A DNA stretch of 64,000 bases. It comes from Anaerolineae bacterium (lineage in GTDB: Bacteria > Chloroflexota > Anaerolineae > 4572-78 > J111). Shown here piece by piece: positions 6,839 to 38,229 of this stretch. Position 1 is the first letter of the stretch; the number at the start of each line of letters is the position of its first letter. Both the position numbers and the translations under genes were made by a program. The DNA lies in the NCBI GenBank assembly GCA_023382535.1, contig JAHDWA010000008.1:62001-126000 (forward strand), given 5' to 3'. Below the pieces are notes generated by a model, which was not told where the DNA came from, ran no database searches, and saw only the letters and a list, made by a program, of their open reading frames with translations.

Positions 6839-6914
6839 GGATTCGTTGCGTTGGGGGGAAATTTAACCAAATATCATAATCCTCTTATTTTTCAAACAGA
6901 TTGGAGTCGTTGCA

Positions 6915-21911: not shown

Positions 21912-23105
21912 ATGGTTACGCTTATGAGCCTTTTTTGGACTCTCCTGAGCCGGTTTCAGCGGCGCCTCTGTCATCTCCCCCCAGCTTCAGCAGTTGCCGG
22001 GCTGTTTGGGCGTATCCAAATAAAGGGCAAGCCGGGATTTTTTGTTCGTCCGGCTGTGCCTGACCTTTCCCTGGGTTGGCCTGCTCTGGCTGTTGTTGCC
22101 GTCAGCCCCACCTTATCTCCGCTAAGAAAAATTAATCGTGTCTTTTTTATCTTGCTCTTTTTGGCGCTCATTCTTGGGAGCTGGCTCCGGCCTGCGCCAG
22201 CTACTCAGGCTCAGACAATGGATCAGGCGGAGACACCCTTCGGCCTGACGCTGGCTATCGCCGGGCCGTCCACCGTTAACGTCGGCGAAACCTTTGAAAT
22301 CCAGGTGGTCTTCAATAACCCCTCGCCGGCCGGTGTTTTTGGCTACCAATTTGGGCTAACCTGGAACAGCGCCGTCGTCATACCTGTTGAACCTGCGCCC
22401 ACCCTCAGCCCTGAGTTTCCCCTCGTTGCCCAAAATGAAGTCGCTAACGGGCAGCTTGCCGTGGCTGCCAGCCGCCAGGGCGATGTACCCGACCTGCCCG
22501 GTTCGCTGACCCTGCTGACCTGGCGGTTCCAGGCTGTCGCGCCCACCGGCGTTGACTCAACCCGCTTTGAGCTAATTGCACCCACCCTGGGGCAAAAGGA
22601 TGGGACAGGACTGCCGCTGGAGGCAGTAACCCCTCTCGCAATGGGGGTGGCTGAACCGGCTCCCCAGCGCGGCAGTCTGCTTGGAAATGTGCAAGTTGAA
22701 GGGCGCGCTCCCGGCAGCCAGGCTAATATCAACATCCTGATCAACGAGTCGGGCCTGGCCTTAGCCGCTGCCCCTGGCGGTGAGTTTACCTTCGCCGATC
22801 TTGACTTTGGCGCTTATACCTTGACCGCCAGCAGCCCCGGTTTTCTGAGAGCAACCTGCAACGTGATTCATCAAAGTGAACTGACCACCCTGGCCGGTCT
22901 CACCCTGCTGGCCGGCGATCTCAACGACGACGGCGCCATTGATGTGGCCGACGCCACGGCGCTGGGCCTGGCTATTAGCAGCAGTGCCCCCGGCGCCGTG
23001 GCCGATCTAAATGTGGATGGAACAGTCAACGTGCTGGATTTAATTCCGCTGGCCGTTAATTTTGGACAGTCAGCGGCAGCTCACCCCTGGCTTTGCCAGC
23101 CCTGA
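21912..23105 (+). CDS. Secreted cohesin-like plus dockerin protein
   Basis: A hydrophobic signal or anchor helix lies at residues about 77-95 (FFILLFLALILGSWL), so the true start may be internal. ATG 21912 is kept as the longest frame. A cohesin-type beta-sandwich follows (about 115-250; VGETFEIQVVFNNPSPAGVFGYQFGL). Next comes a carboxypeptidase-regulatory-like fold (about 265-320), then a type I dockerin with two calcium loops, GDLNDDGAIDVAD and ADLNVDGTVNVLD (about 333-385). Family knowledge: cohesin binds dockerin to assemble extracellular complexes. It is the first of eight such genes. Its stop overlaps the longest frame of the next gene. Confidence 0.8.
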   Translation: MVTLMSLFWTLLSRFQRRLCHLPPASAVAGLFGRIQIKGKPGFFVRPAVPDLSLGWPALAVVAVSPTLSPLRKINRVFFILLFLALILGSWLRPAPATQAQTMDQAETPFGLTLAIAGPSTVNVGETFEIQVVFNNPSPAGVFGYQFGLTWNSAVVIPVEPAPTLSPEFPLVAQNEVANGQLAVAASRQGDVPDLPGSLTLLTWRFQAVAPTGVDSTRFELIAPTLGQKDGTGLPLEAVTPLAMGVAEPAPQRGSLLGNVQVEGRAPGSQANINILINESGLALAAAPGGEFTFADLDFGAYTLTASSPGFLRATCNVIHQSELTTLAGLTLLAGDLNDDGAIDVADATALGLAISSSAPGAVADLNVDGTVNVLDLIPLAVNFGQSAAAHPWLCQP

Positions 23106-23125
23106 AAAAGTGGAGGAAACAACTG

Positions 23126-23836
23126 ATGAAAAGGTCAAACAGATTTTTCTCATTCAAAATCGCCTGCCTGTCCGTTATTCTGCTGGCGTTGTTTGCCCTG
23201 GCGCCCCTGGCCCTGGCCCAGAATGGGACGCGGGTGTATCTCCAGCCGGCCGAGTCGGCCAGCGGGCATTTGACGGTCGAGGTGTTGGCTGAAAATGTAA
23301 CCGATCTGTATGGACTCGAGCTTCACCTCAAATATGACCCGGCCGTGTTAGAAATCCAGGACAGCAAGGCTGACCAGGAGGGAGTCCAGATTGAGCCGGG
23401 CACCCTGCTGCCCGTCAACCAGGGGTTTGTGGTGGCCAATCAGGCGGATCAAGGCCAGGGAACCATTCTTTACGCTCTGACCCTGCTCAACCCGGCCCCG
23501 CCAGTTCAAGGCAGCGGGCCGGTGGCCCGGATAACCTTTAAAGTACTGCAAGATGTGCCCTCAACCATCAGTATTGAACAAGCTACCCTGGTCGCGTCCA
23601 ATTTACAGACCATTCCCAGCGAAATGGCCCCGTTAACGGTCGGCGGCTCCGCCGAGAGTCAGGACAGCGGCTTCCCCTGGTGGATCGTTGGGGCCGCAGT
23701 GTTGGGGCTGGGCGTGGTGGTCCTGGGCGGATTGGTGGCGCTGCTTAGTTTCAACAAAAAAGCTCGCCCCCGGACTCCTGAAAAATCCGGACGAGGATCT
23801 GGCAGCCGGCCCAGTGCCTTTAAAGAGATGCGCTAG
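23126..23836 (+). CDS. Membrane-anchored cohesin-like protein
   Basis: ATG 23126 follows GGAGGA at a good distance and begins a classical signal peptide (IACLSVILLALFALAPLALA). A single cohesin-like domain (about 32-170; LTVEVLAENVTDLYGLELHL, DPAVLEIQD, GSGPVARITFKV) is followed by a membrane helix (WWIVGAAVLGLGVVVLGGLV) and a basic cytoplasmic tail. It has no dockerin. The layout suggests an anchoring subunit that displays one cohesin on the cell surface to capture dockerin-bearing partners encoded nearby. It starts 21 bp after the preceding gene, so it is in the same operon. Confidence 0.85.
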   Translation: MKRSNRFFSFKIACLSVILLALFALAPLALAQNGTRVYLQPAESASGHLTVEVLAENVTDLYGLELHLKYDPAVLEIQDSKADQEGVQIEPGTLLPVNQGFVVANQADQGQGTILYALTLLNPAPPVQGSGPVARITFKVLQDVPSTISIEQATLVASNLQTIPSEMAPLTVGGSAESQDSGFPWWIVGAAVLGLGVVVLGGLVALLSFNKKARPRTPEKSGRGSGSRPSAFKEMR

Positions 23837-23877
23837 ATTCAATACCACTTATATTATCTTTCTCCAGGCCATAATCT

Positions 23878-23978
23878 ACCGCAGAGAGCGCACACTTGCC
23901 CCTGGCGCGGCAAGTGCCAGGGGCAGGACGCTGAGATTAAAGAAGAAAATTCTCTGCGTTCTCGGCGTGCTCAGCGGT
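23878..23978 (+). repeat. ACCGCAGAG/CTCAGCGGT inverted repeat element
   Basis: ACCGCAGAGAGCGCA and TCTGCGTT...CTCAGCGGT form the ends of a roughly 100-bp element with an inner hairpin CTTGCCCCTGGC/GCCAGGGGCAGG. It lies between the anchored cohesin gene and the histidine kinase gene. Confidence 0.65.
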
Positions 23979-23985
23979 AAAAAAT

Positions 23986-25554
23986 GTGGTGATTGAACGA
24001 TCAAAGTCGGTCATTTACACGATTAGAATGATCCTGCCGATGAACCAGGCAAATCGGCTTAAGAACCAAATATCCTCGCCCTGGGAGGCTTCCCCGGCTG
24101 AACGCAGGTGGAAGCCTTTCCGCCATTTTCCCGCTCCCCAGGAGCGGCAGCTTTACTCAATCATCACGCTTCTGCTCACCTCACTTTTTGCCGTCCTGCT
24201 TTATTTTCTCCTGTCTCTTTTCTCCCTTCAATTGACTGGTTTCGCGCTCGTCTACGGACTGGTCAGTCTTTGTCTCTTTGCCTGTTTGCATCCCTGGTTG
24301 GAACTGTTCCTGGAACGGCGATTTCACCCGGAACGACTTCTTTACCGCCAACTGGTCGAGGATTACGGCCGGGTTGTCCGCCAGACGTCGGACCTGGACA
24401 TCCTGCTGCCCTTTGTCGCGTCAACTCTGGCTACAAGGCTTCATCACCAGAGTGTCACGATCTGGTTCTGCCATGCCGAAGACAGCATGCTGGTTTTGGC
24501 CCACGTCGAAGGGGCGCTGGCCGTCGAGGATTTGGTTGAATTGCCGCTTGACGTGCCGCAGGGGCCCTTGTTCGGGACCCAACCCGTTTTGGCTCTACCG
24601 GAAAGCGCCCTGCGCCAGGGCTTGCTGCTGCTGGGCGTTGAGACCGTTGCTGCGTTGAGTTTACAGGATGAACTGGTGGGTTTGATTGGCCTGGGCCAGG
24701 GGATTCAGGGCCAATCCAGCGGTCCTGAGGCGCTGCAAGTATTGGATTGGATGACCGCACAACTGGCGCTGGCAGTCAAGAACGCCCGTCTCATCGCGGA
24801 GTTGGCCGAAACGCTGGACAAACTCCAACTGGCCTACCGCCGGACGATTGACGCCCAGGATGAGGAACGCCGCAATCTGGCTGTGGAACTCCATGACGAC
24901 ATTTTGAGCCGCCTGACAACCATGGGCATGACCCTGAGCAGCGGCCAACGCCAATTGGCCAGCGACCCGGCCCGGCTGCAAGCCTGCCTGGAGCTGTTGG
25001 GCCAGGAGACGCGCTACCTGAATGGCCGCTTGCGCGAAATAACCCAGGGACTGCACCCGGCGGTGCTGGCCGACCTGGGCCTTATTGCCGCTCTCCAGGC
25101 TTATATGGACTCGCTGAGCAAACTGGTGCTGCCGGCCTCGGCCCCCCGTACAATTGATCTGACCGCCCAGGGCTTTGACGGGTCGCGGATTGACGATCCT
25201 AAATTAGAACGGGACTTGTACTATATCACCCGCCAGGCGCTTGACAACGCCATTAAACATGCCCAGGCCGAGCAAGTTTTTATCCACCTGCGCTGGCGTG
25301 ACGACGCTGTAACCGTCACGATCCAGGATACGGGTGTTGGGTTAAAGGCTGCGCCCGAATTGTTGATGGGGCAGCAGGGCCATTTGGGCTTGTTGTCGCT
25401 GCACGAGCGGGTTCTGGCCTGGCAGGGCCGCCTCAGCTTTCAGACCGGGCCGGGCCAGGGTACCACGATTTACGCCCGTCTGCCTATCCACCAACCCAGT
25501 CCCAATCCGACCCATCTGCAGGCGTTTACCCATTATTTAAGGAGTAAGGAGTAG
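23986..25554 (+). CDS. NarL-system sensor histidine kinase (TM-GAF-HisKA_3-HATPase)
   Basis: This protein of up to 522 residues has two hydrophobic helices (about 60-105), a GAF-like domain (about 125-265), and a HisKA_3 dimerisation/phosphoacceptor helix with ELHDDILSRLTTMG (phosphorylated His about 304). The HATPase_c domain has DNAIKHAQ (N box), IQDTGVGL (G1) and GHLGLLSLHERV (G2). It would phosphorylate the NarL-type regulator encoded convergently at 25613-26266. No ribosome binding site favours GTG 23986 over ATG 24028 or 24040. It ends inside a GGAGTAA heptamer array. Its position inside the cohesin/dockerin cluster suggests it controls that cluster. Confidence 0.88.
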   Translation: MVIERSKSVIYTIRMILPMNQANRLKNQISSPWEASPAERRWKPFRHFPAPQERQLYSIITLLLTSLFAVLLYFLLSLFSLQLTGFALVYGLVSLCLFACLHPWLELFLERRFHPERLLYRQLVEDYGRVVRQTSDLDILLPFVASTLATRLHHQSVTIWFCHAEDSMLVLAHVEGALAVEDLVELPLDVPQGPLFGTQPVLALPESALRQGLLLLGVETVAALSLQDELVGLIGLGQGIQGQSSGPEALQVLDWMTAQLALAVKNARLIAELAETLDKLQLAYRRTIDAQDEERRNLAVELHDDILSRLTTMGMTLSSGQRQLASDPARLQACLELLGQETRYLNGRLREITQGLHPAVLADLGLIAALQAYMDSLSKLVLPASAPRTIDLTAQGFDGSRIDDPKLERDLYYITRQALDNAIKHAQAEQVFIHLRWRDDAVTVTIQDTGVGLKAAPELLMGQQGHLGLLSLHERVLAWQGRLSFQTGPGQGTTIYARLPIHQPSPNPTHLQAFTHYLRSKE

Positions 25555-25619
25555 GGAGTAAGGGAAAAAAACTTGCTTCTTCCACTACTTTTTACTCCTT
25601 ACTTCCTATTCCCTATTGT
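25541..25619. repeat. Inverted heptamer arrays forming the shared 3' ends of kinase and regulator genes
   Basis: GGAGTAA, GGAGTAG, GGAGTAA, GGGAAAA (25541-25568) face TTACTCC, TTACTTC, CTATTCC, CTATTGT (25592-25619). The kinase stop TAG lies in the second unit. The regulator stop (on the minus strand) lies in the last unit of the other arm. The dyad can act as a bidirectional terminator. Confidence 0.8.
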
Positions 25620-26266
25620 CCTGCCTGCAAAAACAGCAGCACCGCCATCACGCGCGGATTGTGAGTTGCTTCGCTGGTCAAATTCAGCTTGGAGAAAATA
25701 TTGTTGACGTGGCTCTCGACCGTGCGCTCGCTGACCGAGAGGCGCTGGGCAATGGCGCTGTTGGTGTAGCCCTCGGCCATCAAGCCGAGGACTTCCTGCT
25801 CCCGCCGGGTCAACTGGTTAAGTTGGGCCTGGGGCCGGGCCGAAGCCAGGTGCAGCAGTTCATCCTGGATTTCGGGAGCCAGAATGGCTCCACCGTCGGC
25901 CACCACCTCGATGGCCCGGACGAGTTCCGCCGGTTCGTTGAGGGTAGTTTTGAGGAGGTAGGCTTTGCCGGCGGTACCATCCCGCAGAAAGGCTTCGGCA
26001 TACTGGCGCTGGCTGTGGTGCGAGAACAGGACAATGCCGATATGGGGCAGCGCTGCCCGAATCTGTTTGGCCGCTTCGATGCCGTTGAGTTGGGGCATCT
26101 GGATGTCTAACAAAGCCACGTCGGGCTGCAAGTGCTGTGCCCCCTCGACGGCAGTTTGGCCATCAGCTACGGATGCGACCACGGCAATATGCGGCGCGAT
26201 CTGCAAAGCATGCAGATAAGCCTCGCGCAGAATGGTCTGGTCTTCGGCAATCAAAACGCGGATCAT
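25613..26266 (-). CDS. NarL/FixJ family response regulator
   Basis: This 217-residue protein has a receiver domain (about 1-120) with acidic pocket DQ near the start, phosphoacceptor Asp in VALLDIQMP (about 54), Ser/Thr in VLFSHH and Lys in KAYLLKTT. A LuxR-type HTH follows (about 150-212; LTRREQEVLGLMAEGYTNSAIAQRL, then ERTVESHVNNIFSKL). It is the expected partner of the convergent histidine kinase, and phosphorylation would promote DNA binding. Likely targets are the flanking cohesin/dockerin genes, which is inferred from position only. Confidence 0.93.
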   Translation of the reverse strand: MIRVLIAEDQTILREAYLHALQIAPHIAVVASVADGQTAVEGAQHLQPDVALLDIQMPQLNGIEAAKQIRAALPHIGIVLFSHHSQRQYAEAFLRDGTAGKAYLLKTTLNEPAELVRAIEVVADGGAILAPEIQDELLHLASARPQAQLNQLTRREQEVLGLMAEGYTNSAIAQRLSVSERTVESHVNNIFSKLNLTSEATHNPRVMAVLLFLQAGQ

Positions 26267-26629
26267 AACTCCATCTTATGCCAACTCTTTGCCTGCGTCA
26301 AGAGGTTATCTTTACCCATTCCCAGTTCGGAATTTTTTCTTCATCTCCCTCCGTGCCAATACGGATAGCGCCCTCCCTAAAACCACTGAAAAATTTTCCG
26401 CATTGCTACCGTTGAGACAGGGTAGGCAATCGGTTATGATGAAAGTGGCCGCTATGAATCCGTAGCGGCTTAGTTTAGGCTGAAATATCTCCCCGTGAGG
26501 TTGGAGGATTATGGGCAATTGATTTTTTGGACTTAGGAAAGGAGGGTGACCACGCCGCCAAGCCAAAACCCGAACAAGAATTGCTTCAGTTTAATCAATT
26601 TAACTTAATTCGACATGGAGGCTTAACTG
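26267..26629. other. Divergent intergenic region (363 bp) with a small hairpin
   Basis: This region separates the minus-strand regulator from the plus-strand dockerin gene and should hold both promoters. A stem GCCGCTA/TAGCGGC (26448-26469) is the clearest structure. TTGCTT with CTTAAT 17 bp downstream (about 26581-26609) is a weak promoter candidate. No open reading frame with a ribosome binding site is convincing. Confidence 0.5.
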
Positions 26630-27733
26630 ATGAAACAAAAAAATTTACGTAAAACGACGTGGCTTATCTTGCTTGTGCTGCTTCTGGCGGCGGTGACGGT
26701 TCTGCCCGCCGCCGCTCAGGAGCCGGATGGCGACGTAAGCGTTCAGGTGGTGGATTTTTCTGCTTTCCTCTGGAATCCCGCCGCGACCAATGTTTCCCGT
26801 GGCGATGGCACGGTCATACAAAAACTCGACGTTCAAGGAGCATCGGAAATTTCGGGGATGACCCTGGCAATTGGCTACAATGCCTCGGTTGTCTCCCCGC
26901 AGGATGTCCGGCCGGGCGACCTGTTACCGGGGACGCGCGGGGTTGACTACTTCTTTACCGTTCAGACCGGCGGCGCTGCGCTGGCGTGCGGCGGTGATGC
27001 CTCGTTTAGCGTCAATCTTGTTTACTTTGACCCCACCGTTACGATCAATGGCAGCGGCAGCGTGCTCGATATTGTCTGGCGCAGCGACCCCGATGCGGCG
27101 ATCGGTGATGTGGCCGATGTTTGTTTGGATGGAGCCACCTCCCTGGTCACGGACAACGGCGGCTTTCCCGGCCCGGCGGTTGTTGATGTGCCTGGAACCA
27201 TCACCGTGATTGCCCCCAGCATCTTTACTTTCCAAATCGGCCTGGAAGGGGGCAAAGATGCCGGGCTGATCGTCGGCGCAGTGCCTGAAAATATTTTTAC
27301 CGATGTCAAGATCAACGGCATTTACCCATGCGATGGTGGCAGCGTTGGTCCCGCCGGTATTTGTCCATTTAACAATGCGTCCGTACCGCCCCCCTACACG
27401 GTTGATGTCAGCCGCCGCGGCTACCTCGACGCCAGAGCCTCCTTCGCTGACCCCCATGACTCAACCTCGATCTTCCTTCTGGCGGGCGACCTTAATAACG
27501 ATAATGTGGTCAATATCCTCGATATCGTGTTGATGGCCAGTGTCCTGAACCAACCGGCCGGCCCCAGCACCCTCTCCCAGTCGGCAGATTTTACCGGCCC
27601 TCCCGCCGGAATTGGCTTGCCGCCTGCCCCGGATAGCCTGATCAATATTCTTGACCTGGTTTTGGTGGCCAAGAACTTTGGCGCTTCCGGGCCGACGAAT
27701 GGTGTGCCTCCCGGTGGGAGTTTCCCCTTCTAG
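26630..27733 (+). CDS. Secreted cohesin-like/dockerin protein
   Basis: ATG 26630 follows TGGAGG and starts a signal peptide cleaved near AAAQEP. Residues about 32-195 form a cohesin-like sandwich (GASEISGMTLAIGYNASVV... VNLVYFDPTV). A carboxypeptidase-regulatory-like segment (about 200-280) has Cys pairs. A C-terminal dockerin (about 283-355) has a first calcium loop GDLNNDNVVNILD, with Asn for the usual Gly. A 25-residue Pro/Gly insert precedes a shortened second half, PDSLINILDLVLVAKNFG, that lacks the first Asp ligands. The tail is GASGPTNG. It may be a dockerin with only one intact calcium site. Confidence 0.8.
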   Translation: MKQKNLRKTTWLILLVLLLAAVTVLPAAAQEPDGDVSVQVVDFSAFLWNPAATNVSRGDGTVIQKLDVQGASEISGMTLAIGYNASVVSPQDVRPGDLLPGTRGVDYFFTVQTGGAALACGGDASFSVNLVYFDPTVTINGSGSVLDIVWRSDPDAAIGDVADVCLDGATSLVTDNGGFPGPAVVDVPGTITVIAPSIFTFQIGLEGGKDAGLIVGAVPENIFTDVKINGIYPCDGGSVGPAGICPFNNASVPPPYTVDVSRRGYLDARASFADPHDSTSIFLLAGDLNNDNVVNILDIVLMASVLNQPAGPSTLSQSADFTGPPAGIGLPPAPDSLINILDLVLVAKNFGASGPTNGVPPGGSFPF

Positions 27734-27755
27734 GCGGGTGTTAATGGTTGTGATC

Positions 27756-27794
27756 CTCCCCTGCCCTCCTTAAGTAAGAAGGAAGGGCAGGGAG
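27756..27794 (+). terminator. C-run/G-run hairpin after the dockerin gene
   Basis: CTCCCCTGCCCTCCTT and AAGGAAGGGCAGGGAG pair imperfectly around a 7-base loop. No T-run follows. It is of the same composition class as 29588-29635. Confidence 0.55.
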
Positions 27795-27912
27795 CAGGTA
27801 AGAACTTACGGGAAGTGGGGAGGGTTTAAGGGTGTCGCCGGAACTTTAAGTTCTCCCCAGTTTGCATAAGTCCAGACCAACCGTGTCGTTTTGGATCAAT
27901 GGAGGAGCCTCA

Positions 27913-29574
27913 ATGGAAAAAACTTGGTTGCAAACCTATCCCCAAAAATGGCTGGTCGCCGGAATTCTGGCGCTGGCCGTGTTGACCCTGGCTTTCCAGA
28001 CCGGTGATGGTGAGGTAGATCCGGCCCACTGCCGCACCTGTCCCCCTCGTCCGCCCACCGCGACAGCAACGCCCACTGCACCTCCGCTCCAGGCTTGCCA
28101 GGTGACAGGCGTTTTCTTTAACGACCAGCCCTATACACTGGGTACAACAATTACGGCTACTGCCGGTGTTCCGCTTAACGTCACCGTGCGGGTGGCCGAC
28201 AGCCAGGGCGCGCCTCTCATCGGGGCCAATGTGGATGCGACTGTCACCCAGACCTCGACCGTCCAGGCGGCCGCTATCCCGCCGCTCGAAGACCAGTCCG
28301 GCACCTATGACGGCATTTATACGCCTGAAAATCCCGGATTGTATATCCTTAAATTTTCAGTCAGCGATCTTACCGGGCCGCGTTTTTTGCCGTGTTCGGC
28401 TGAGGCATTGGTTCGGGTTGTTGAGTTACCCCCTGTTGAGCCATGCAGTATCAATCTCGACGTTCAACCGAACCCGGTCACGCTTGGCAGCACCGTCAAT
28501 CTGACCGCCACGCTAACCAACGCCACTTGCTCTAGCGGGGTAACTGCCGATATCCAGGTGCCGGGTAACGGGATCGTCACTGTTCCCCTCACCGGCACAG
28601 CCAGTATCTGTACCGCTCCCTACACGCCGCCCGTAACCGGCGCCTACACCCTTATAGCCAGGGCTAATTCAGCCGGTGGAAACTGCCAGTCGGATCCACC
28701 CCGTAACCTTACGGTCGGGACCACGCCTCCGCCCACAACACCCACCCTTCAGCTCCAATTACCGGCATCGCCCATTGACCTCTGTGGCAGAACCGAACCC
28801 ATTGCCGGAACCCTGGTAATTTCCGGGGTCACCGGTCTGAGTAGTGTCGGACTGGAAGTTACTTACGACAGATCCTTTATCCAGGTGATTGATGCCTTTG
28901 GCCGGCCCACCCCGCCGGTTCAAGTCGAATCACTGCTGCCTTCAGATTGGGTTATTACGGAAAATCGGGTTGATACGGCCAATGGTCGCATCTTTTTCAC
29001 GGCTAATGGGGGTACTCCCCTTAACGGCAGCCAGGATTTGATTGAGATTAACTGGCAACCGCAGGGTCGAACAGGCGTTACTCCCCTCAATGTAACCGCA
29101 GTTCTGACCGACGCGCTTGGAACCCGGACCGAGACCGGGGCAGCCGCGTTGAACATCACTGTCGGCTCCCCCTGCCGCGCTGGCGTCACCAGCTTGCAAG
29201 GCCGCACCGACCACGGCGGAGTCATTGTGACCAACACTGCCGGTCAGCAAACCCAAAGTTACCCGAATGGCCTGTTTGCTATCGCGCCGCAAGGCCCGCT
29301 CAGCCTTAATTTCCCCGGCTATCTCGCAGTCCAGGCGGACCTGCCCCCTGATGCGGCAGAACAGTCTGCCAGCCTGGGGACCTTCACTCTCCTGGCCGGC
29401 GACGTGAACGGCGACAGCACCATCAACATTCTTGACCTGGCCTACCTGGCCCAGCGCTACCAATCCGCCGATCCCGCCGCCGATCTTAACGCCGATGGCA
29501 TGGTCAATATTCTCGATCTGGCCCTCGTTGCCGGGAATTACCAGCGACAAGGCCCGCTGACAACCTGGAAATAA
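27913..29574 (+). CDS. Secreted multi-domain protein: Ig-like x2, cohesin-like, carboxypeptidase-regulatory-like, dockerin
   Basis: ATG 27913 is preferred to 27862 because GGAGGAG lies 6 bp upstream and a signal helix (WLVAGILALAVLTLAF) follows. A Pro/Thr spacer is followed by an Ig-like domain (CQVTGVFFNDQPYTLGTT..., about 60-170). Next come a second Ig-like domain (about 175-270), a cohesin-like domain (about 280-425; LVISGVTGLSSVGLEVTY), and the LQGRTDHGG module (about 430-490). It ends in a two-loop dockerin (GDVNGDSTINILD, ADLNADGMVNILD) and QRQGPLTTW. The first Ig domain is paralogous to one in the next gene. No enzyme domain is present, so it is probably a structural or adhesive partner. 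Confidence 0.82.
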   Translation: MEKTWLQTYPQKWLVAGILALAVLTLAFQTGDGEVDPAHCRTCPPRPPTATATPTAPPLQACQVTGVFFNDQPYTLGTTITATAGVPLNVTVRVADSQGAPLIGANVDATVTQTSTVQAAAIPPLEDQSGTYDGIYTPENPGLYILKFSVSDLTGPRFLPCSAEALVRVVELPPVEPCSINLDVQPNPVTLGSTVNLTATLTNATCSSGVTADIQVPGNGIVTVPLTGTASICTAPYTPPVTGAYTLIARANSAGGNCQSDPPRNLTVGTTPPPTTPTLQLQLPASPIDLCGRTEPIAGTLVISGVTGLSSVGLEVTYDRSFIQVIDAFGRPTPPVQVESLLPSDWVITENRVDTANGRIFFTANGGTPLNGSQDLIEINWQPQGRTGVTPLNVTAVLTDALGTRTETGAAALNITVGSPCRAGVTSLQGRTDHGGVIVTNTAGQQTQSYPNGLFAIAPQGPLSLNFPGYLAVQADLPPDAAEQSASLGTFTLLAGDVNGDSTINILDLAYLAQRYQSADPAADLNADGMVNILDLALVAGNYQRQGPLTTWK

Positions 29575-29587
29575 ACCAGGGCCGCCG

Positions 29588-29635
29588 ACCCCCTCCCTGC
29601 CCTCCCCCTCACAGGGGGAGGGCAGGGAGGGGGGT
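29588..29635 (+). terminator. Long C-run/G-run hairpin
   Basis: A 22-base arm beginning ACCCCCTCCCTGCC pairs with its near-exact complement across a 3-base loop, ending 52 bp before the amidase gene. It is probably a dispersed palindrome serving as terminator or attenuator. Confidence 0.65.
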
Positions 29636-29686
29636 GCGGTCAGCGGTCACACTTTATCTGTTCCCTTCTTCTTCAAGGAGCGCCTT

Positions 29687-32257
29687 ATGAAAACAATCGT
29701 CACTTTCAAATCTCTTATCTCCGGCTCACTCATTTTACTGGTCGCCCTGCTCTCCTTCACCTGGGCCAGCCAAACCTCGGCCCATCCCCCTCGCCAGGAG
29801 GGTGAGCAGCCGGCTTTTACCGGCTCCGTCCAGAGTTCGGCGGATGGCAGCGCCACGATTGCCTCCCAGGAGACCCAGCTCGATGCGGCCTACTTTGGAG
29901 CCAACGGCCAGCTTGAAGGATTGGCAGTCACCTCTGCCGGCCTGGCCTTGGCTCCCGACACGCTTGAAGGAAGTTATACCTCCGGGACTATCCTCAGTCC
30001 ACTGGGCTTTACCACCGACATCGTTCCCCTGTGGGGGGCTGACCTGCCGGAAGGTACAAATCTGCGCCTGGAAACCCGCCTGAGCAGCGACGGCGGCGCG
30101 TCCTGGAGCGACTGGGTGGAGAACCCGGAAGCCTTCTATCCCGTCCGCGATGATCTGCGCAGCGGCAATCTCATCTGGGCCGGCTCTGAGCAGGTGGCCC
30201 TGCAATTTAAAGTTACCCTGCACAGCGGCTCGCTGGACTTTGGGCCGGCACTCAGAAGCGTCACCTTGGTTTTCAGCGATACCAGCCAGGGTCCAACCGA
30301 CGGTGAAATCGCCGGCCAGATGGCCGAAGTCAGCGCCGCCGCTCAGGTTTGCCCGATTCAAAAGCCGGGGGTCATCTCCCGCACCACCTGGGGCTGCCCC
30401 GACGGCCAGAACAGTCCCCGCCGCCCGCCCCAGTATGCTCCGGTCACTCATATCATCATCCACCAGACCGAAACCCCCAATCAGCCCCAGCCCTACTCCG
30501 GTTATGCCGGTTGGGTTCGCTCCGTCTGGAACTATCACGCCAACATCCTTCGTTGGGGTGACGTAGGCTATAACTACCTCATTGACCCCGAAGGTAAGAT
30601 TTATGAGGGCCGGGCTGGCGGCGACGACGTGATCGGCATTCACGATACGCACAATCGCGGCTCCATGGCGATTGGCTTTATCGGCTGCTACGGCAACTGC
30701 GATGATCCCCGGCTCGGTGTAGCCCAGCCCGATGAGGCGATGCTCAAGAGCGCCGAGGACTTAATCGCCTGGAAATTGCAGCAGAAGGGGATTGATCCAC
30801 TAAGTTCGGCTGCCTATGATGGCTTGGCCAATGTGCCGGTTGTCGCTGGGGGACGCGATGTTACCTGGACGACTTCGCCGGGGGATCATCTCTACAACCG
30901 GCTTCCCGACTTGCGCACGAAAGCTTCTGAAAGGATAAAGAGTTGTAGTAACCCTCAAGCCTGCCAAATCACCGGTGTCATCTTTGGCAAAGAAAGTTAC
31001 ACTACCGGTGAGACGGTCAGCTTCACGGTCAGATTGGCCGATTTTCAAGGACTGCCGCTCGTTGGGGCAACGGTGACCGCCACTAAAACCGTCAGTGCGC
31101 CGCCGGTCGGTGCGCTGGCTTCCACCGGTTTTGGCTTTGTAGACCGGGCCGGCGAATATGACGGTCAAGATCCTGAAACAAGTGTCCCCGGCCTTTACAC
31201 TTACACCTTCACCGCCAGCGATCCCAACCAGCGGTTCCTGCCCTGCTCGGCTACTGCCAGCATTGAAGTTAAAGGAAGTGGTCCGGTAACCGCTACCCCC
31301 ACCTCCACTGCTACACCCACGGCTACCCCAACCGGCACGCCGCCAACGGTTACGCCCACCCCAACCAACACCCCCACTCCAACGACGACGCCCCCCACCG
31401 GCACCACCGTCCGGGTCAACCCGGCCAACCTGATCATTCCTGTTTGCAGCGCCCAGGGGACTGCCGCCGTTGAAGTCGTCAATGTAACTAATATGCTGGC
31501 CGTCCAACTCCAACTCCGCTACAACCCCAGCCAGGCCCAGGTGATTGACGCCGACCCGGCCCGGGCCGGCATCCAGGTGATCGCAGGCAGCATCTTCTCC
31601 ACCGGCTTCATTGCCCAAAATTCGGTGGATACAAATACCGGGGTCATTTCCTTTGCTGCCACTCTATTGAGCGGAGCGATCAACGGCAACGCCGAGTTGA
31701 TTCGAGTCAATTGGCAGCCTGTTGCTGCCGGCAGCGCCCCGCTGAGTCTGGAAAATGTGATCCTGGTCAACGCTGCCGGGCAGCCCATCTCCTTTACCGC
31801 CCAAAATGGCCAGCTCGAAGTTTCTCCCAACTGCGCCGGTATCGCCGGGATATTGACCCTCCAGGGCCGTACCCATCACAGCGGTATCGTCGTCGTCGGT
31901 TCCGGCGGCCAGCAGACCCAAACGCAGGCGGACGGCTCCTTTACCGTGCCCGCTGCGGATAACCTGAAATTCAGTTTTCCCGGCTACCTGTCCGCCCAGG
32001 CTGACGTGCAGACGTTTCTGGCCCAAAACCAGGGCGCGACAGGTCAAGCCGTGAATCTGGGGAGTCTGACTTTGCTGGCAGGTGATCTCAACGCCGATAA
32101 TCGTGTTGACATCCTCGATCTGGCTACTATCGCCAAAGTTTACAGCTCCGGCGATACCCTGGCCGATCTGAACGCCGACGGCACGGTGAACATTTTGGAT
32201 TTGGTCCTGGCCGCCGGAAACTACGGGCGGCAAGGTCCGCTGACGGATTGGCAGTAG
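29687..32257 (+). CDS. Secreted PGRP/N-acetylmuramoyl-L-alanine amidase with Ig-like, cohesin-like and dockerin modules
   Basis: This 856-residue protein has a signal peptide (1-30), then a beta-rich N-terminal region (about 40-205) typical of large bacterial amidases. The peptidoglycan-recognition amidase domain (about 225-400) has ISRTTWGCP, the zinc histidine in HIIIHQTETP, WNYHANILRWGDVGYNYLID, and HDTHNRGSMAIGFIG. It would cleave the bond between muramic acid and the peptide stem. After it come an Ig-like domain (about 425-525), a Pro/Thr linker, a cohesin-like domain (about 580-715), the LQGRTHHSG module, and a dockerin (GDLNADNRVDILD, ADLNADGTVNILD) ending GRQGPLTDW. It carries both cohesin and dockerin, so it could bridge partners. 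Confidence 0.88.
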   Translation: MKTIVTFKSLISGSLILLVALLSFTWASQTSAHPPRQEGEQPAFTGSVQSSADGSATIASQETQLDAAYFGANGQLEGLAVTSAGLALAPDTLEGSYTSGTILSPLGFTTDIVPLWGADLPEGTNLRLETRLSSDGGASWSDWVENPEAFYPVRDDLRSGNLIWAGSEQVALQFKVTLHSGSLDFGPALRSVTLVFSDTSQGPTDGEIAGQMAEVSAAAQVCPIQKPGVISRTTWGCPDGQNSPRRPPQYAPVTHIIIHQTETPNQPQPYSGYAGWVRSVWNYHANILRWGDVGYNYLIDPEGKIYEGRAGGDDVIGIHDTHNRGSMAIGFIGCYGNCDDPRLGVAQPDEAMLKSAEDLIAWKLQQKGIDPLSSAAYDGLANVPVVAGGRDVTWTTSPGDHLYNRLPDLRTKASERIKSCSNPQACQITGVIFGKESYTTGETVSFTVRLADFQGLPLVGATVTATKTVSAPPVGALASTGFGFVDRAGEYDGQDPETSVPGLYTYTFTASDPNQRFLPCSATASIEVKGSGPVTATPTSTATPTATPTGTPPTVTPTPTNTPTPTTTPPTGTTVRVNPANLIIPVCSAQGTAAVEVVNVTNMLAVQLQLRYNPSQAQVIDADPARAGIQVIAGSIFSTGFIAQNSVDTNTGVISFAATLLSGAINGNAELIRVNWQPVAAGSAPLSLENVILVNAAGQPISFTAQNGQLEVSPNCAGIAGILTLQGRTHHSGIVVVGSGGQQTQTQADGSFTVPAADNLKFSFPGYLSAQADVQTFLAQNQGATGQAVNLGSLTLLAGDLNADNRVDILDLATIAKVYSSGDTLADLNADGTVNILDLVLAAGNYGRQGPLTDWQ

Positions 32258-32268
32258 GTTACGTAGAG

Positions 32269-32322
32269 CGTGGTGCGTGGTGCGTATTCGTTTAATTCAA
32301 GCATCACGTATCACGCATCACG
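32269..32322. repeat. Intergenic inverted heptamer arrays
   Basis: Two CGTGGTG units and CGTATTC on the left face CATCACG, TATCACG, CATCACG on the right, giving a dyad 12 bp after the amidase stop. This is one of the few heptamer arrays outside a coding sequence. Its left arm is in the opposite orientation to the coding ones. Confidence 0.75.
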
Positions 32323-32333
32323 AACGAACACTG

Positions 32334-33314
32334 ATGACTTACTTTTATAAAATAACTTTAGGTTGGCTCATCCTATTCACCTTTTTAATACCCTGGCCGG
32401 CCCTGGCTGATGAACCCGTTCAACTGATTCTGCGCAACTTGCCGCTCCAGGACGACCGGCTGCTGGTTATGACTATCCAGCTCGAAAATGTGGCGGACCT
32501 GTACGGGGCGGAGATTCAACTTCGTTACGATTCAACGCAGTTGAAGGTGCGCGACGAAGACCCACGCCTGGAAGGTGTGCAGATCGCCCCCGGCCCGCTG
32601 CTGGCTTTTGACGACCGCTTTGTGGCGCTCAATGAAGCCAACGCCCAGGCTGGCCTGATTGATTTTGTCTTTACTCTGCTTAAGCCGGCCCTGCCGATCA
32701 ATCAGGCCGGCGTTTTAGCAACGGTCGCTTTTGAGGTGACCGGCAGCGGCCCCTTCAAAGTCGAGGTGGCCCAGGCCAAATTTGTCTCCTCTAAATTGAC
32801 TGCCATGCCCGTAGCCACGACCGTCCTGGCGCTGGCCGGGCCGCAGGATTTGGAGCCAGTTTCGCCGCAATTGGTAGCTGCCAGGTTTCCGTTGAGTTGG
32901 ATCTGGGCCATCGCCGGGATTTTGGGAATTGTGATCCTTACTCTCCTCTTTTTTCGGCTGCTGCCCGTGGGACCAGAGGTGACGAGCAGCCTCCCTGCGG
33001 CTCGCCGTGTGCCCGGTGTCACCGCTTCACCCACTCACACCGCCGTCCTGCTGACCGAGCAGGGCCGGCGAGCCATGGCGCAGGGCCATCCGGCTCAGGC
33101 TTATGACCGTTTTAGTCAGGCCATCGAACTCGACCCGGCCAATGCGGCGGCCTGGCTGGGCAAGGGGTTGGTAGCGCAGCAGGAAGTAGAAAAGCGCATC
33201 TGTTTTCAACGGGCACTGGCGCTTGAGCCTGGCAATACCCAGGCCCGGGCGGAACTGCAACGGCTTGATACCTCCATGAAGGGGTTTGTGAACCATGAAA
33301 ATTATTCCTCATAG
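32334..33314 (+). CDS. Membrane-anchored cohesin-like protein with TPR tail
   Basis: ATG 32334 begins a signal peptide (ITLGWLILFTFLIPWPALA). The earlier in-frame start at 32277 lies inside a heptamer repeat and is rejected. A cohesin-like domain (about 25-165; LENVADLYGAEIQLRYDS) is followed by a membrane helix (SWIWAIAGILGIVILTLLFF, about 205-225). About two TPR motifs lie near the C-terminus (AQAYDRFSQAIELDPANAAAWLGKG), which would be cytoplasmic if the helix spans once. It has no dockerin, so like 23126-23836 it is a candidate surface anchor, here with an inward-facing protein-protein interaction domain. It overlaps the subtilase start by 20 bp. Confidence 0.8.
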   Translation: MTYFYKITLGWLILFTFLIPWPALADEPVQLILRNLPLQDDRLLVMTIQLENVADLYGAEIQLRYDSTQLKVRDEDPRLEGVQIAPGPLLAFDDRFVALNEANAQAGLIDFVFTLLKPALPINQAGVLATVAFEVTGSGPFKVEVAQAKFVSSKLTAMPVATTVLALAGPQDLEPVSPQLVAARFPLSWIWAIAGILGIVILTLLFFRLLPVGPEVTSSLPAARRVPGVTASPTHTAVLLTEQGRRAMAQGHPAQAYDRFSQAIELDPANAAAWLGKGLVAQQEVEKRICFQRALALEPGNTQARAELQRLDTSMKGFVNHENYSS

Positions 33315-35052
33315 AATGCTTTTTTTCGTCGCCGTGATGCTCATGGCAGCGCTGTTCCCAGGCCCGTCTCTGGCCCAAGCCCCAACTAATGTGGCTGACG
33401 TTGAGTCCGCCCTGGCCGCTGAACCGACGGTCAAAGTAATTGTAGCTTTGCATCCGGTCGAGGCGGGTATGGTCCAGGCGGGTCAGATCGCTCAGAGCCA
33501 GACAAACCTGATGAACACGGTGAGTCCCTCGGATTTCCAGGTAACCCAGACCTATCAAACCCTGCCTGCTCTGGCCGGTGAAGTAACTTTGGCCGGTTTG
33601 GAGGCGCTCCGCCAGCAGCCCGACGTTGCTGCCATCGCCCTTGATTTGCCCGTGGAGATTGCCGATGTCACCCCCGGCGCTGTCTTTATTGGCGCGGATG
33701 CTGTCTGGCGAGATTTTGGCTTAAGTGGAGCCGGAGTACGGGTAGCCGTCCTGGATACGGGTGTTGATACCGCCCATGTTGACCTGGCGGGCAGTCTGGT
33801 CAGCCAGCACTGTTTCAACCGTACCGGCGGCTGCCTGCCCGAACGGATAACTGAAAGCGACAGCGCCCAAGATGAAAATGGTCACGGCACTCATACAGCC
33901 GGGATTATTGCCAGCCGCGGCCAGACCAGTCCCCAGGGTATTGCCGCCGCAACCGAGTTAGTCGCCGTGCGCGTATTAGGACCAAACGGTACCGGCTTTT
34001 CGTCCGACGTGCTGGCCGGGATGGATTGGGTGGTGGCAAACCAGGCCCAGCTTGGGGTCAAAGTAATGAACCTGAGCCTGGGCGGCGGCGGCTACGCCGG
34101 GGTCTGTGATCAGGCCGATGCCAATACCATGCTCTACGCCGCTGCTGTCCAGGCAGCGCGGCAAGCCGGGATCACCGTTTTTGCGGCTGCCGGCAATAGT
34201 GGTCAGGCCGATATACTCATGGCGCCCGCCTGTGTTTCAGGAGTCGTCGCCGTCGGTAATGTTTATGATGCGCCTTTGGTCAGCATGAGCTGGCCGACAT
34301 GCACCGACCAGAATATCATGGCCGGCCAGGTGGCCTGTTCCAGCAACACTAGCCCTGAACTGGACTTACTGGCGCCCGGAGTGCTGGTCCGATCAACCAA
34401 TTTGGGCGGCGGCGAAGCCACTAAATCCGGTACCTCGATGTCTACCCCGCACGCGGCCGCTGTTGCTGCCCTATTGCTGCAAGCTAATCCCAATCTAGCC
34501 CCGGCTGACCTGGAAACCATTCTGGAAGAGACCGGGACGCCGGTCACGGACAGCCGGAATGGCCGGGTTACGCCCCGGCTGGATGCCCTGGCCGCAGTCA
34601 CCCGGGTTGTCGCCGGGCAGGTTACGCCGATTTCGGGAACTGTGCTGCTGCAAGGTCGAACCGATCACAGCGGAACCCGTATTTATCTGAGCGATGATCC
34701 CTGTTCCTCGTCGGTTACGGGAGAACCGGCCGCTCTCACCAATATTGAGGGTCGTTTTGCAATTAATGCTTCAACTGACCAGCATTACCTGTGCTTGCAA
34801 GCGGCCCAACGCGGGTACTTAATGGCTCAAGAGGATGAGCCTAAGGGCGAGCTGGGGATCATTACCCTCCCCGGCGGTGATGTCGTCGCAGATCAGGTCA
34901 TCAATATTCTGGACCTGGCCTTTATGGCCATCCGTTATCGCAGCAGTGACCCCACCGCCGATGTCAACGCCGATGGGCAGGTGGATATTTTTGATTTGAC
35001 CATCGCTGCCAGTAATTACAACCAGCGGGGTCCGGTAACCAATTGGGAATGA
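33295..35052 (+). CDS. Secreted subtilase (S8) with dockerin
   Basis: This 585-residue protein has a signal peptide (SLAQA), an inhibitor-I9-like propeptide (about 28-125), and a subtilisin catalytic domain with the triad D154 (VAVLDTGVD), H197 (ENGHGTHTAG) and S381 (SGTSMSTPHAAA). The oxyanion Asn is in FAAAGNSG. All key residues are present, so it should be active outside the cell. The LQGRTDHSG module (about 455-520) and a dockerin (GDVVADQVINILD, ADVNADGQVDIFD) follow, ending NQRGPVTNW. The first dockerin loop has Val-Ala in place of Asn-x, a weakened calcium site. It would be recruited by the nearby cohesin-bearing anchors. Confidence 0.92.
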   Translation: MKIIPHRMLFFVAVMLMAALFPGPSLAQAPTNVADVESALAAEPTVKVIVALHPVEAGMVQAGQIAQSQTNLMNTVSPSDFQVTQTYQTLPALAGEVTLAGLEALRQQPDVAAIALDLPVEIADVTPGAVFIGADAVWRDFGLSGAGVRVAVLDTGVDTAHVDLAGSLVSQHCFNRTGGCLPERITESDSAQDENGHGTHTAGIIASRGQTSPQGIAAATELVAVRVLGPNGTGFSSDVLAGMDWVVANQAQLGVKVMNLSLGGGGYAGVCDQADANTMLYAAAVQAARQAGITVFAAAGNSGQADILMAPACVSGVVAVGNVYDAPLVSMSWPTCTDQNIMAGQVACSSNTSPELDLLAPGVLVRSTNLGGGEATKSGTSMSTPHAAAVAALLLQANPNLAPADLETILEETGTPVTDSRNGRVTPRLDALAAVTRVVAGQVTPISGTVLLQGRTDHSGTRIYLSDDPCSSSVTGEPAALTNIEGRFAINASTDQHYLCLQAAQRGYLMAQEDEPKGELGIITLPGGDVVADQVINILDLAFMAIRYRSSDPTADVNADGQVDIFDLTIAASNYNQRGPVTNWE

Positions 35053-35110
35053 AGGAGAATTTTCTGGTTCGTTTCACATTTTAGGCTTTACGTTTTTTCT
35101 TTTATGTGCT

Positions 35111-35139
35111 ACACTATGTCAAGTTGACATAGTGTTTTT
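35111..35139 (+). promoter_or_regulatory. Perfect 12-bp-arm dyad with T-run (terminator or operator)
   Basis: ACACTATGTCAA, one base, TTGACATAGTGT, then TTTTT. The T-run makes it a good rho-independent terminator for the subtilase gene. The TTGACA within the right arm could instead be a -35 box, so a regulatory switch for the LysM gene is possible. Confidence 0.65.
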
Positions 35140-35158
35140 GTTTGCAAGGAGGTACCCC

Positions 35159-36361
35159 GTGAACAGGATCATCTCCTATTTTTGGCTTATAACCCTGGCG
35201 CTAGGGCTTTTTGGTTGTGACATCCCTCGTGGTGATCAAGCCACGGGGGATATTGACCAATTTTCCCCCCCGGCTGCTGCTTCTCCGGTTGCTTCACCCC
35301 CGGCGGAGGCGGCAGCAGCGCAAGCCGAGGCGGTGATTCGCTTTGAGCCGTCCGTCGTTCAGGTGGGGACCGGCAATTCCCAGGTTATCGAGCTTAGGAT
35401 TGAAAATGTGGCCAACATGGCCGGCGCCGAGATACAAGTTCAGTTTAACCCGGCCGTGCTCCAGGTTCAGGATGCCGATCCGGGGCAGGACGGTACCCAG
35501 ATTGAGCCGGGGAGCTTTCCGGCTCCTGATTTCGTCGCCAGCAATGTGGTGAGCAATACGGTTGGACTGCTTCAGTATGCCGCCGTGCAGATCCCCCCGA
35601 CCCAGCCGGTCAGCGGCAGTGGTCTGTTGGCCCGGATCACCTTTCAAACGCTTGCCGCAGGCACAAGCGATCTAATTTTCACCCGCGCCGACCTGGCTAC
35701 GGGCGATGCCCGGCCTATCGCGGTTACCAGGCAGTCGGGCCAGATTGTGGTCAGCGGCCCGGGACCCCTTGTGACCCCAACCTCGACGAATACCCCTATT
35801 CCTGGCCAGCCAACCCCGACCCCCACGAGTACTCCAATTCCTGGCCAGCCGACTGCCACCCTTACGCCGCTACCCCCTCCACCAACGGCAACCCCGTTCA
35901 TCCCCACCCCTGTCCCAACCTCTACACCGGTCACGCCGCAGGTGTTTATTCCACCCGGAGCAACACAAGGCTTCTGTTACCGGGTGCAGCCGGGAGACAC
36001 CCTGGAAAGCCTGGCCTATACGTATGGCACGGACCCCGGCTTTATTAGCATCGCCAATGACCTGTATCCACCCGGTCACATCTATCCCCAGCAGGTTTTG
36101 TTTATGCCCACGGCGTATGGTAACGGGCCGAATGTGTATGTGGTCCAGCCGGGAGATACCCTGGCCGCAATAGCCGAGCAGTGCCAGTTGAAAGTAGATG
36201 TTCTGGCTTATGTCAATGGCCTGGCGGAGAATGCAAGCCTGGCGGGGATTGGCGTATTGATTATTCCCAGGCCGCCCTTTGCGCCGCCGTCGCGCTACCC
36301 CTATCCCCAGGTGGGGCCGCCCTCCGTCTGGCCTCCGCCCTGCTCTGGCTCGTGTTATTAA
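35159..36361 (+). CDS. Cohesin-like lipoprotein with two LysM domains
   Basis: GTG 35159 is chosen because AGGAGG lies 6 bp upstream. It starts a lipoprotein signal ending LGLFGC, so Cys20 should be lipidated. A cohesin-like domain (about 58-200; VIELRIENVANMAGAEIQVQ) is followed by a Pro/Thr linker with repeated PTPTSTPIPGQP. Two LysM domains (about 277-325 YRVQPGDTLESLAY and 333-380 YVVQPGDTLAAIAE) bind peptidoglycan or chitin-like glycans. It has no dockerin. Lipid plus LysM gives double attachment to membrane and wall, consistent with an anchoring scaffold that presents a cohesin to dockerin-bearing partners. Confidence 0.9.
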   Translation: MNRIISYFWLITLALGLFGCDIPRGDQATGDIDQFSPPAAASPVASPPAEAAAAQAEAVIRFEPSVVQVGTGNSQVIELRIENVANMAGAEIQVQFNPAVLQVQDADPGQDGTQIEPGSFPAPDFVASNVVSNTVGLLQYAAVQIPPTQPVSGSGLLARITFQTLAAGTSDLIFTRADLATGDARPIAVTRQSGQIVVSGPGPLVTPTSTNTPIPGQPTPTPTSTPIPGQPTATLTPLPPPPTATPFIPTPVPTSTPVTPQVFIPPGATQGFCYRVQPGDTLESLAYTYGTDPGFISIANDLYPPGHIYPQQVLFMPTAYGNGPNVYVVQPGDTLAAIAEQCQLKVDVLAYVNGLAENASLAGIGVLIIPRPPFAPPSRYPYPQVGPPSVWPPPCSGSCY

Positions 36362-37324: not shown

Positions 37325-38023
37325 ATGAATTCCTCTCCAAAACGGCGTAGAAAGTTAACCCCAGAACAGGTTGTTCTTTTTCTGGGCATTTTTGGCTTTA
37401 TCGTTTTCATCTGGATGATGGCCTTCCTTTTTGTGCCGCTGCTGGCCCACCGGCCCACGCCGGTCGTTCTCGCTCCGATTCTGATTGTGGAGATGGCCGC
37501 CACGCGAGGTTTTGTCCTGCCACCCACCTGGACCCCAACTCCAAGCCGTGAAATTATCCCCACCACAACTTCAACGCCGGCTTACGATGGTTCAATCCCC
37601 ACGCGTCTCTACACGCCCCGCCCAACCTCACTGCCGGGCCTCCCGCTGCCCCTTCAGGTTCCCAAATTGTCGGTGCTTGACCTGGCTCGCATTATGCAGG
37701 GTGAGTCGCCGGGGGATAAAGAAGCGGCCTATATGGTCGGTTGGGTGGCTAAAAATCGGCTGGTGCATCCCAGTTATGGCGATACCTACGCAGTGGTGTC
37801 GCACGGGTTTTTTGGTTATCGCCCTGATCTGACTCCCAGTAAGGAATTTATGGACATCGCCCGGCGAATCATCAAATCCCGCGAAGACCCGACCGGCGGT
37901 TGTCTCTATGCCCTTTCTCGCACCGATATTACCAAGCTGCGTATTCCGCCCAGCCGGGCCGACGTGGCCTTCGGCGAGTGGTTTTTCTTCAAAACCTGGC
38001 CCCTGGCGGATCGGGGGCTTTAA
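37325..38023 (+). CDS. Membrane-anchored SleB-like cell-wall hydrolase domain protein
   Basis: This 232-residue protein has a basic N-terminus, one signal-anchor helix (VVLFLGIFGFIVFIWMMAFLFV, about 17-40), a Pro/Thr-rich extracytoplasmic linker (about 60-110) and a C-terminal domain. The latter reads LARIMQGESPGDKEAAYMVGWVAKNR and DPTGGCLYALS. The conserved GE followed by a helix and the terminal GG-LY pattern resemble hydrolase_2/SleB lytic enzymes that cut peptidoglycan. The call is by motif only. It starts immediately after the VOC gene. Confidence 0.65.
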   Translation: MNSSPKRRRKLTPEQVVLFLGIFGFIVFIWMMAFLFVPLLAHRPTPVVLAPILIVEMAATRGFVLPPTWTPTPSREIIPTTTSTPAYDGSIPTRLYTPRPTSLPGLPLPLQVPKLSVLDLARIMQGESPGDKEAAYMVGWVAKNRLVHPSYGDTYAVVSHGFFGYRPDLTPSKEFMDIARRIIKSREDPTGGCLYALSRTDITKLRIPPSRADVAFGEWFFFKTWPLADRGL

Positions 38024-38120: not shown

Positions 38121-38229
38121 GTTACTGTCTGAAGGGGCTGCTTCATCTTCCAGCTTTTTATTCATTTATCAGTTTCACCTGTCACCCTTCGATTAGCCCT
38201 ATCTAACAGGTTTTGTGAGAGGAAACGTT

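Follow-up and report, generated by a model that had tools for sequence, protein, structure and literature searches.

A partly conserved non-cellulosomal cohesin/dockerin gene cluster of Chloroflexota, with a zinc-less PGRP-like protein and a subtilase, as a putative cell-surface scaffold

In a 64,000-nucleotide stretch of DNA from an Anaerolineae bacterium (Chloroflexota; assembly GCA_023382535.1, contig JAHDWA010000008.1, positions 62,001 to 126,000; hereafter the window), eight genes encoding cohesin and/or dockerin proteins lie together between positions 21,912 and 36,361, and are here labelled A to H. Their products probably form a cell-surface scaffold held by contacts between cohesins and dyads of an X module and a dockerin (XDoc), a reading to which we give somewhat better than even confidence. 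It is built on sequence, the predicted fold of the tail of E, the loss of zinc ligands in the PGRP-like domain of E, the intact catalytic triad of the subtilase G and the conserved gene order, and from these we infer that the modules bind one another. Non-cellulosomal cohesin/dockerin systems are already known, and the cluster is a variant of them. The eight genes, with the modules of E, are as follows.

21912..23105, plus strand: A, with signal sequence, class-2 cohesin, carboxypeptidase-D-like (X-like) module and class-2 dockerin of loop spacing 29
23126..23836, plus strand: B, with signal sequence, class-1 cohesin and C-terminal transmembrane helix 187-205
26630..27733, plus strand: C, with divergent cohesin and a dockerin carrying an insertion in its second calcium loop
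27907..29574, plus strand: D, with Ig-like repeats, class-1 cohesin, X module and class-1 dockerin
29687..32257, plus strand: E, a secreted protein made up of PGRP-like pseudo-amidase, Ig-like module and cohesin–X–dockerin tail (Amidase_2 8.7e-13)
30434..30883, plus strand: PGRP/Amidase_2 domain of E, in which zinc ligand H259 and Y295 are kept, the second His is replaced by G389 and the Cys by S397
31403..31831, plus strand: cohesin module of E (model residues 1-143)
31832..32254, plus strand: X module and type II-like dockerin of E (model residues 144-284)
32334..33314, plus strand: F, with signal sequence, class-1 cohesin, transmembrane helix 192-210 and predicted cytosolic TPR (Pfam TPR)
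33295..35052, plus strand: G, S8 subtilase (D154/H197/S381) with X module and class-1 dockerin (Peptidase_S8 1.1e-45)
35159..36361, plus strand: H, lipoprotein-like, with class-1 cohesin and two LysM (LysM 5.1e-17)

These open reading frames are all present as given in a preliminary description of this DNA, made from the letters alone. Its three anchored cohesin proteins B, F and H are upheld by Pfam together with predicted helices and LysM, and its five dockerin proteins A, C, D, E and G were likewise recovered; the cohesins that A, C, D and E also carry had been missed, as had the X modules and the loss of zinc ligands in E. The Pfam Cohesin family is matched above its cut-off by A (E-value 1.7e-6), B (5.7e-11), F (3.1e-6) and H (3.7e-9) and below it by E (0.0019) and C (0.029, rising over the cut-off to 1.5e-5 in the orthologue of relative G002), with no match listed in D. 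Dockerin_1 is above cut-off in A (2.2e-6), C (1e-6), D (4.5e-8) and E, and slightly under it in G (20.0 against 22.9 bits). Hidden Markov models (HMMs) of the family, built in this analysis with E and D of the window among the training rows, found cohesins in E, D, H, B and F (1e-56 to 7e-21), none in A or C, and dockerins in D, E, G, C and A. By these models D matches throughout its tail (cohesin 5e-32, X 1e-24, dockerin 8e-33, D itself being a training row), as G does in its X module (8e-11) and dockerin (1e-28); the tails of D and E share 43% identity across 259 residues. In A the X-like module is matched by CarboxypepD_reg at 2e-5, yet below cut-off, and by the X HMM at 0.0012; the N-terminus of A is long and its true start uncertain. 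Two calcium loops were read in the dockerins, canonical in A, D and E, with the first loop of G weak at position 3. The insertion in the second loop of C is absent from three orthologues in Ardenticatenia, and a four-residue loop insertion is known from ScaA of A. cellulolyticus, as reported in the cited part of PMC5141474. An AlphaFold2 (AF2) model of C from seven sequences gave pLDDT 30.

Genome-wide statements rest on the genomes of relatives, in particular G001 (Anaerolineales H5_CFX7), G002 (H5_CFX5), G006 (Bin_81R) and the Ardenticatenia G003, G004 and G008. As five of the eight Pfam dockerin matches in the 9.4 Mb genome of the nearest relative fall in this single cluster, chance clustering is not an issue. 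The search for the same gene set in other Chloroflexota, proposed with the preliminary description, showed that the gene order recurs. Relative G001 has A and B, a histidine kinase and response regulator, then C-D-E-F-G-H, as in the window; G006 has the same order, but with an E-like cohesin–X–dockerin protein in the place of D and an extra gene of this architecture between G and H. The order is kept through G in G002, where H is located elsewhere, and G544 has histidine kinase, response regulator and C-E-F-G-H. The three Ardenticatenia relatives keep C-E, and on other contigs carry a LysM-cohesin, a small secreted cohesin, F and G, consecutive in G003 and G004 and split over two contigs in G008. 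In the matches listed for 396 genomes of the class, ten genomes have full-length F, at least 11 the E-type pseudo-amidase and nine both; these genomes are related and non-independent, seven having first been reached through E. Two observations speak against a strictly kept core: E is present without a full-length F in both G007 and G494, and in the regions fetched from G003, G004, G008, G007, G494 and G580 the kinase/regulator pair was not found beside the set. A sample of 301 genomes from the phylum to which G001 belongs included 28 with cohesins. Elsewhere in the phylum, locus L155 (G268:C119) holds a 1723-aa scaffoldin-like open reading frame with five cohesin matches and, by eye, a dockerin-like C-terminus.

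The tail of E was modelled with confidence as cohesin–X-module–dockerin, with the order and folds of the C-terminal end of CipA of Clostridium thermocellum. For E, the fold prediction that had been suggested as a check returns a cohesin-like jelly-roll, and the X module is fused immediately ahead of the dockerin, as in an XDoc dyad. The best structural match of the cohesin is 2xdh from Archaeoglobus fulgidus, and in the ranking by structure type I and non-cellulosomal chains stand above type II. According to the cited part of PMC5141474, type II cohesins are marked by a crowning helix between strands 6 and 7; no helix of four or more residues occurs in residues 1-143 of the E model. With no crowning helix and the higher rank of the other chains, assignment of the E cohesin to type II was rejected, and in the model it looks nearer to type I or non-cellulosomal cohesins. 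In contrast, B by its sequence best matches the cohesins of scaffoldin adaptor protein B (ScaB) in the PDB.

The PGRP domain of E had been described as an amidase and counted among the hydrolases, which is probably wrong. A zinc-dependent PGRP/Amidase_2 hydrolase has His, His and Cys or Asp as ligands, and E has H, G and S, so that two of the three are replaced. A search with E found 105 proteins, that of the window included. An alignment of 183 rows, from 103 proteins (window included) and 80 loci that are related and partly overlap within the same genomes, holds 81 rows with intact ligands, 101 with ligands lost and one cut off (L042). A cohesin and/or dockerin was detected by the family HMMs in 99 rows, all among the 101 ligand-lost and none among the 81 ligand-intact; P0091 has X and dockerin with no cohesin detected, P0084 a cohesin alone. 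The other two ligand-lost rows are L007, whose tail lies in another frame, and L010. Given the fact that the rows are related and overlapping and that the HMMs derive from the same family, the joint occurrence of ligand loss and these tails counts as a single evolutionary association instead of 99 events. Tyr295 is retained in 100 of 102 rows (the ligand-lost rows and the cut-off row). Mammalian PGRP-1 is the best PDB sequence match of the domain, and both have Ser at the Cys-ligand position. The zinc of Drosophila PGRP-LB is bound by H42, H152 and C160 and is lost in C160S, as the cited part of PMC8124813 describes. In view of this substitution and of the ligand loss in E and its tailed kin, the domain is probably inactive as an amidase and resembles a peptidoglycan-recognition module, which would bind peptidoglycan. 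A scan of viral contigs with E found no relative. In the row L010, a 660-codon open frame in H5_CFX7, the PGRP domain is likewise zinc-less and shares 68% identity with that of E, but the C-terminal region after it is unrelated, and there is no cohesin or dockerin.

The subtilase had been credited with an intact triad, and D154, H197 and S381 are indeed present in 12 of 12 aligned sequences, including that of the window, so G is apparently an active protease as judged from its residues; the G544 orthologue has an I9 prodomain above cut-off. The predicted start of G overlaps the end of F in the window, and among the matches listed G adjoins F in nine of the ten genomes with full-length F, the exception being G005, where 8 kb around F was read. 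This adjacency is a hint of a cognate pair. Both F and B have a signal and a second hydrophobic helix, and in alignment the TPR of F is strongly conserved in distant relatives. The lipobox-like cysteine of H, read by eye as LFGC, is LTGC and VTGC in the orthologues at L137 and L006; the search with H found 525 proteins, and among the best 120 of them some align over less than 40% of H. At two other loci (L154 and L157, in G309 and G366) a LysM-cohesin gene adjoins a 1908-aa open reading frame with more than one cohesin match.

The cohesins and dockerins fall into two classes. In a tree of 60 cohesin domains, built from seven of the window and 53 of 64 Pfam hits (11 were left out, among them E of G005 and the C proteins of G004 and G008), A groups with NHL-repeat and AAA protein paralogues and stands away from the other six of the window (B, C, D, E, F and H), with modest support for the split (0.34 and 0.75). 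Class 1 comprises the cohesins of B, D, E, F and H, with C attached, and the dockerins of D, E and G, with C as a variant. Loop spacing among 31 dockerins is 27 in 18 of them (D, E, G, SBBP beta-propellers, cytochrome c7 and others), 29 in seven (A and its kin, whose first helix shows DATA/DAAA and whose second loops resemble the other class) and 33 in two (C of Ardenticatenia); the remaining four, including C of the window, show one loop only by pattern. Such a split suggests, at the level of sequence, two binding specificities. At 2892-7841 of locus L140 in G007 a class-2 cohesin-dockerin protein stands beside a kinase/regulator pair about 33% identical to that of the window.

Eight relatives hold 47 Pfam dockerin matches at E-values of 0.01 or less, cluster members among them being identified by tblastn, not by a Pfam scan of their own. 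This search is incomplete: the dockerins of G in G003, G004 and G008 escaped it, as did class-2 dockerins in G001 and G002, which came to light through their cohesins. Outside the cluster lie three of eight matches in G001 (two SBBP/DUF7948 beta-propellers and a cohesin-dockerin protein), two of seven in G002 (a beta-propeller and a cluster-adjacent fn3 protein with weak, below-cut-off alpha/beta-hydrolase matches), three of eight in G006 (a beta-propeller, a multihaem cytochrome c7 and a 374-aa dockerin protein) and four of six in G007 (two beta-propellers, an NHL-cohesin and an AAA-cohesin). The cytochrome c7-type protein of G006 (L123) has a class-1 dockerin, and surface electron-transfer cargo is possible. 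By Pfam, the matches in the Ardenticatenia are C and E only. In G005 one of 12 is E, and the 11 others, which were annotated, include EPTP- and FG-GAP-repeat proteins, cohesin-dockerin proteins, an SLH-M23-dockerin (L162) and an Amidase_3-VWA-cohesin-dockerin protein (L163); the two cell-wall hydrolase domains strengthen the peptidoglycan theme. No glycoside hydrolase was recognised among the 47 matches or in the window set, and no protein within the window has more than one cohesin. Lacking both a multi-cohesin scaffoldin and dockerin-bearing glycoside hydrolases, the cluster is not a cellulosome. Of the earlier picture of cellulosome logic with exchanged enzymes, the protease cargo and the missing glycoside hydrolase stand, and the active amidase probably falls.

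Within and beyond the cluster, four further genes and a palindrome were recorded.

23986..25554, plus strand: sensor histidine kinase (HisKA_3/HATPase_c by Pfam), at the same position in L001, L002, L006 and L150
25613..26266, minus strand: NarL/LuxR-type response regulator by Pfam, divergent from C, with 75-98% identity and the same position in four relatives
35112..35134, no strand: perfect 23-bp palindrome CACTATGTCAAGTTGACATAGTG upstream of H, with 0 expected by chance
37325-38023: membrane-anchored protein beside H that matches SleB-like Cell Wall Hydrolase (PF07486) weakly and below cut-off
38215-39489: FHA Ser/Thr kinase downstream of H, also in G001, G002 and G007

The kinase/regulator pair, noticed already in the preliminary description as embedded in the cluster, is located between B and C. 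It was rejected as a core part because several distant sets are without it. The palindrome core is identical in G001 and G002, with one site per genome of about 9 Mb, upstream of H both times, and no site was found in six other relatives; it is a candidate operator or leader hairpin of the LysM-cohesin gene. A role as terminator of G was rejected because in G002 it precedes H at a locus that has no G. The PF07486 match (0.004-0.016) appears in four of four sequences scanned, window included; its protein is kept beside H, with the FHA kinase alongside in three relatives' loci.

In the preferred scaffold, docking sites would be offered by the cohesins of H, a LysM lipoprotein held to wall and membrane, of one-helix B, and of membrane-bound F with its predicted cytosolic TPR, and the XDoc proteins to dock there would be the subtilase G, the pseudo-amidase E, the Ig-like D and the small partner C. 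Since E and D have a cohesin just ahead of their own XDoc, a docked copy may offer a further site for another class-1 XDoc or another partner; A would be a separate class-2 set, and the conserved TPR of F may address a partner inside. The outcome would be a subtilase stationed at the interface of membrane and wall, while peptidoglycan, more probably the cell's own because H and F look envelope-fixed, would be gripped by LysM and the PGRP-like domain. It has also been considered that E and D chain head to tail from F and H into a self-extending wall-to-membrane tether, linking PGRP-gripped peptidoglycan through the membrane to the cytosolic TPR partner, with the subtilase trimming or releasing the chain. 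The E cohesin does group with the anchor cohesins by sequence (tree and HMM), but in structure it looks nearer to type I or non-cellulosomal cohesins, and C. thermocellum type II XDocs such as that of CipA are described in the cited part of PMC5141474 as not recognising type I cohesins, which weakens this extension and leaves it, taken as a whole, quite improbable.

If the gripped peptidoglycan were instead that of other, dead cells, with the docked subtilase digesting their protein, the cluster would be a feeding machine, a necrotrophic analogue of the cellulosome. The intact triad and I9 prodomain, several modules of peptidoglycan-binding type by Pfam, the Amidase_3 and SLH-M23 dockerin proteins of G005, and the S8 and C25 peptidases that bear dockerins and adjoin a scaffoldin in Cloacimonadota (cited part of PMC8542988) would fit; however, the window set has one intact hydrolase only, no further hydrolase was recognised among the dockerin proteins of G001 and in G002 only one with the weak matches mentioned above, and H and F appear fixed to the cell's own envelope. 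We regard this reading as unlikely. A sensor of the surface, in which the state of docking or wall is read through the TPR of F by a cytosolic partner and the kinase/regulator pair controls expression, would agree with the conservation of the TPR, with the linkage of the pair in four relatives and with the FHA kinase downstream of H in four genomes, window included. Yet the pair is not found beside the set in the six genomes named above and no TPR partner was identified, and the idea seems to us rather doubtful. Equally doubtful is that the modules are homologous beta-sandwich and EF-hand-like folds without mutual binding, the dockerins acting in cis or as calcium-stabilised C-terminal caps. 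Three cohesins, those of C, D and E, and one dockerin, that of G, score weakly or not at all in Pfam, and cohesin–dockerin binding is a prediction here; against this stand the full cohesin–X–dockerin architecture of E, the calcium loops kept in most dockerins, the matching class split on both sides and the conserved adjacency of cohesin and dockerin genes.

If the scaffold reading is true, the attachment logic of the cellulosome would be in general use for envelope architecture in a phylum that is large and mostly uncultured, and C, E, F, G and H, joined in some genomes by the kinase/regulator pair, would be a compact, partly conserved set for direct study of binding specificity; moreover, a bacterial PGRP family in which zinc-site loss accompanies cohesin/dockerin tails would parallel the non-catalytic PGRPs of animals. 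Among sources available in part, our literature search found no description of this cluster. The nearest parallel to the E tail in module order and folds is the cohesin–X–dockerin and XDoc of C. thermocellum CipA/CipB (3kcp, 2b59, 5m0y), whose X module is carboxypeptidase-D-like according to the cited part of PMC5141474, as is the X-like module of A by Pfam. Identity to CipA/CipB is about 15-25%; in contrast to these, the window has loop spacing 27 and single cohesins, its E tail is borne on a PGRP-like domain instead of carbohydrate-binding modules (CBM) or enzymes, and it carries no glycoside hydrolase cargo. Non-cellulosomal parallels are A. fulgidus 2xdh, as the best structural match of the E cohesin, and ANME archaea, in which dockerins are borne by S-layer proteins and others of the surface without a link to cellulose, as far as the cited part of PMC9012536 goes; there, scaffoldin-like proteins have up to five cohesins and dockerin bearers are commonly ABC substrate-binding proteins, whereas the window has a conserved gene order, anchors linked to wall, membrane and cytosol, and a subtilase. 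The cellulosome-like complex of the cloacimonadote Ca. Stygibacter includes a dockerin-bearing S8 peptidase, like G, but also a multi-cohesin scaffoldin of 3,755 aa and enzymes of GH18/GH57 (cited part of PMC8542988), neither of which was found in the window. Finally, E shares the Ser at the Cys ligand with the non-catalytic PGRP-1/PGLYRP1 of animals, and differs from these in also lacking the second His and in being bacterial, secreted and dockerin-borne.

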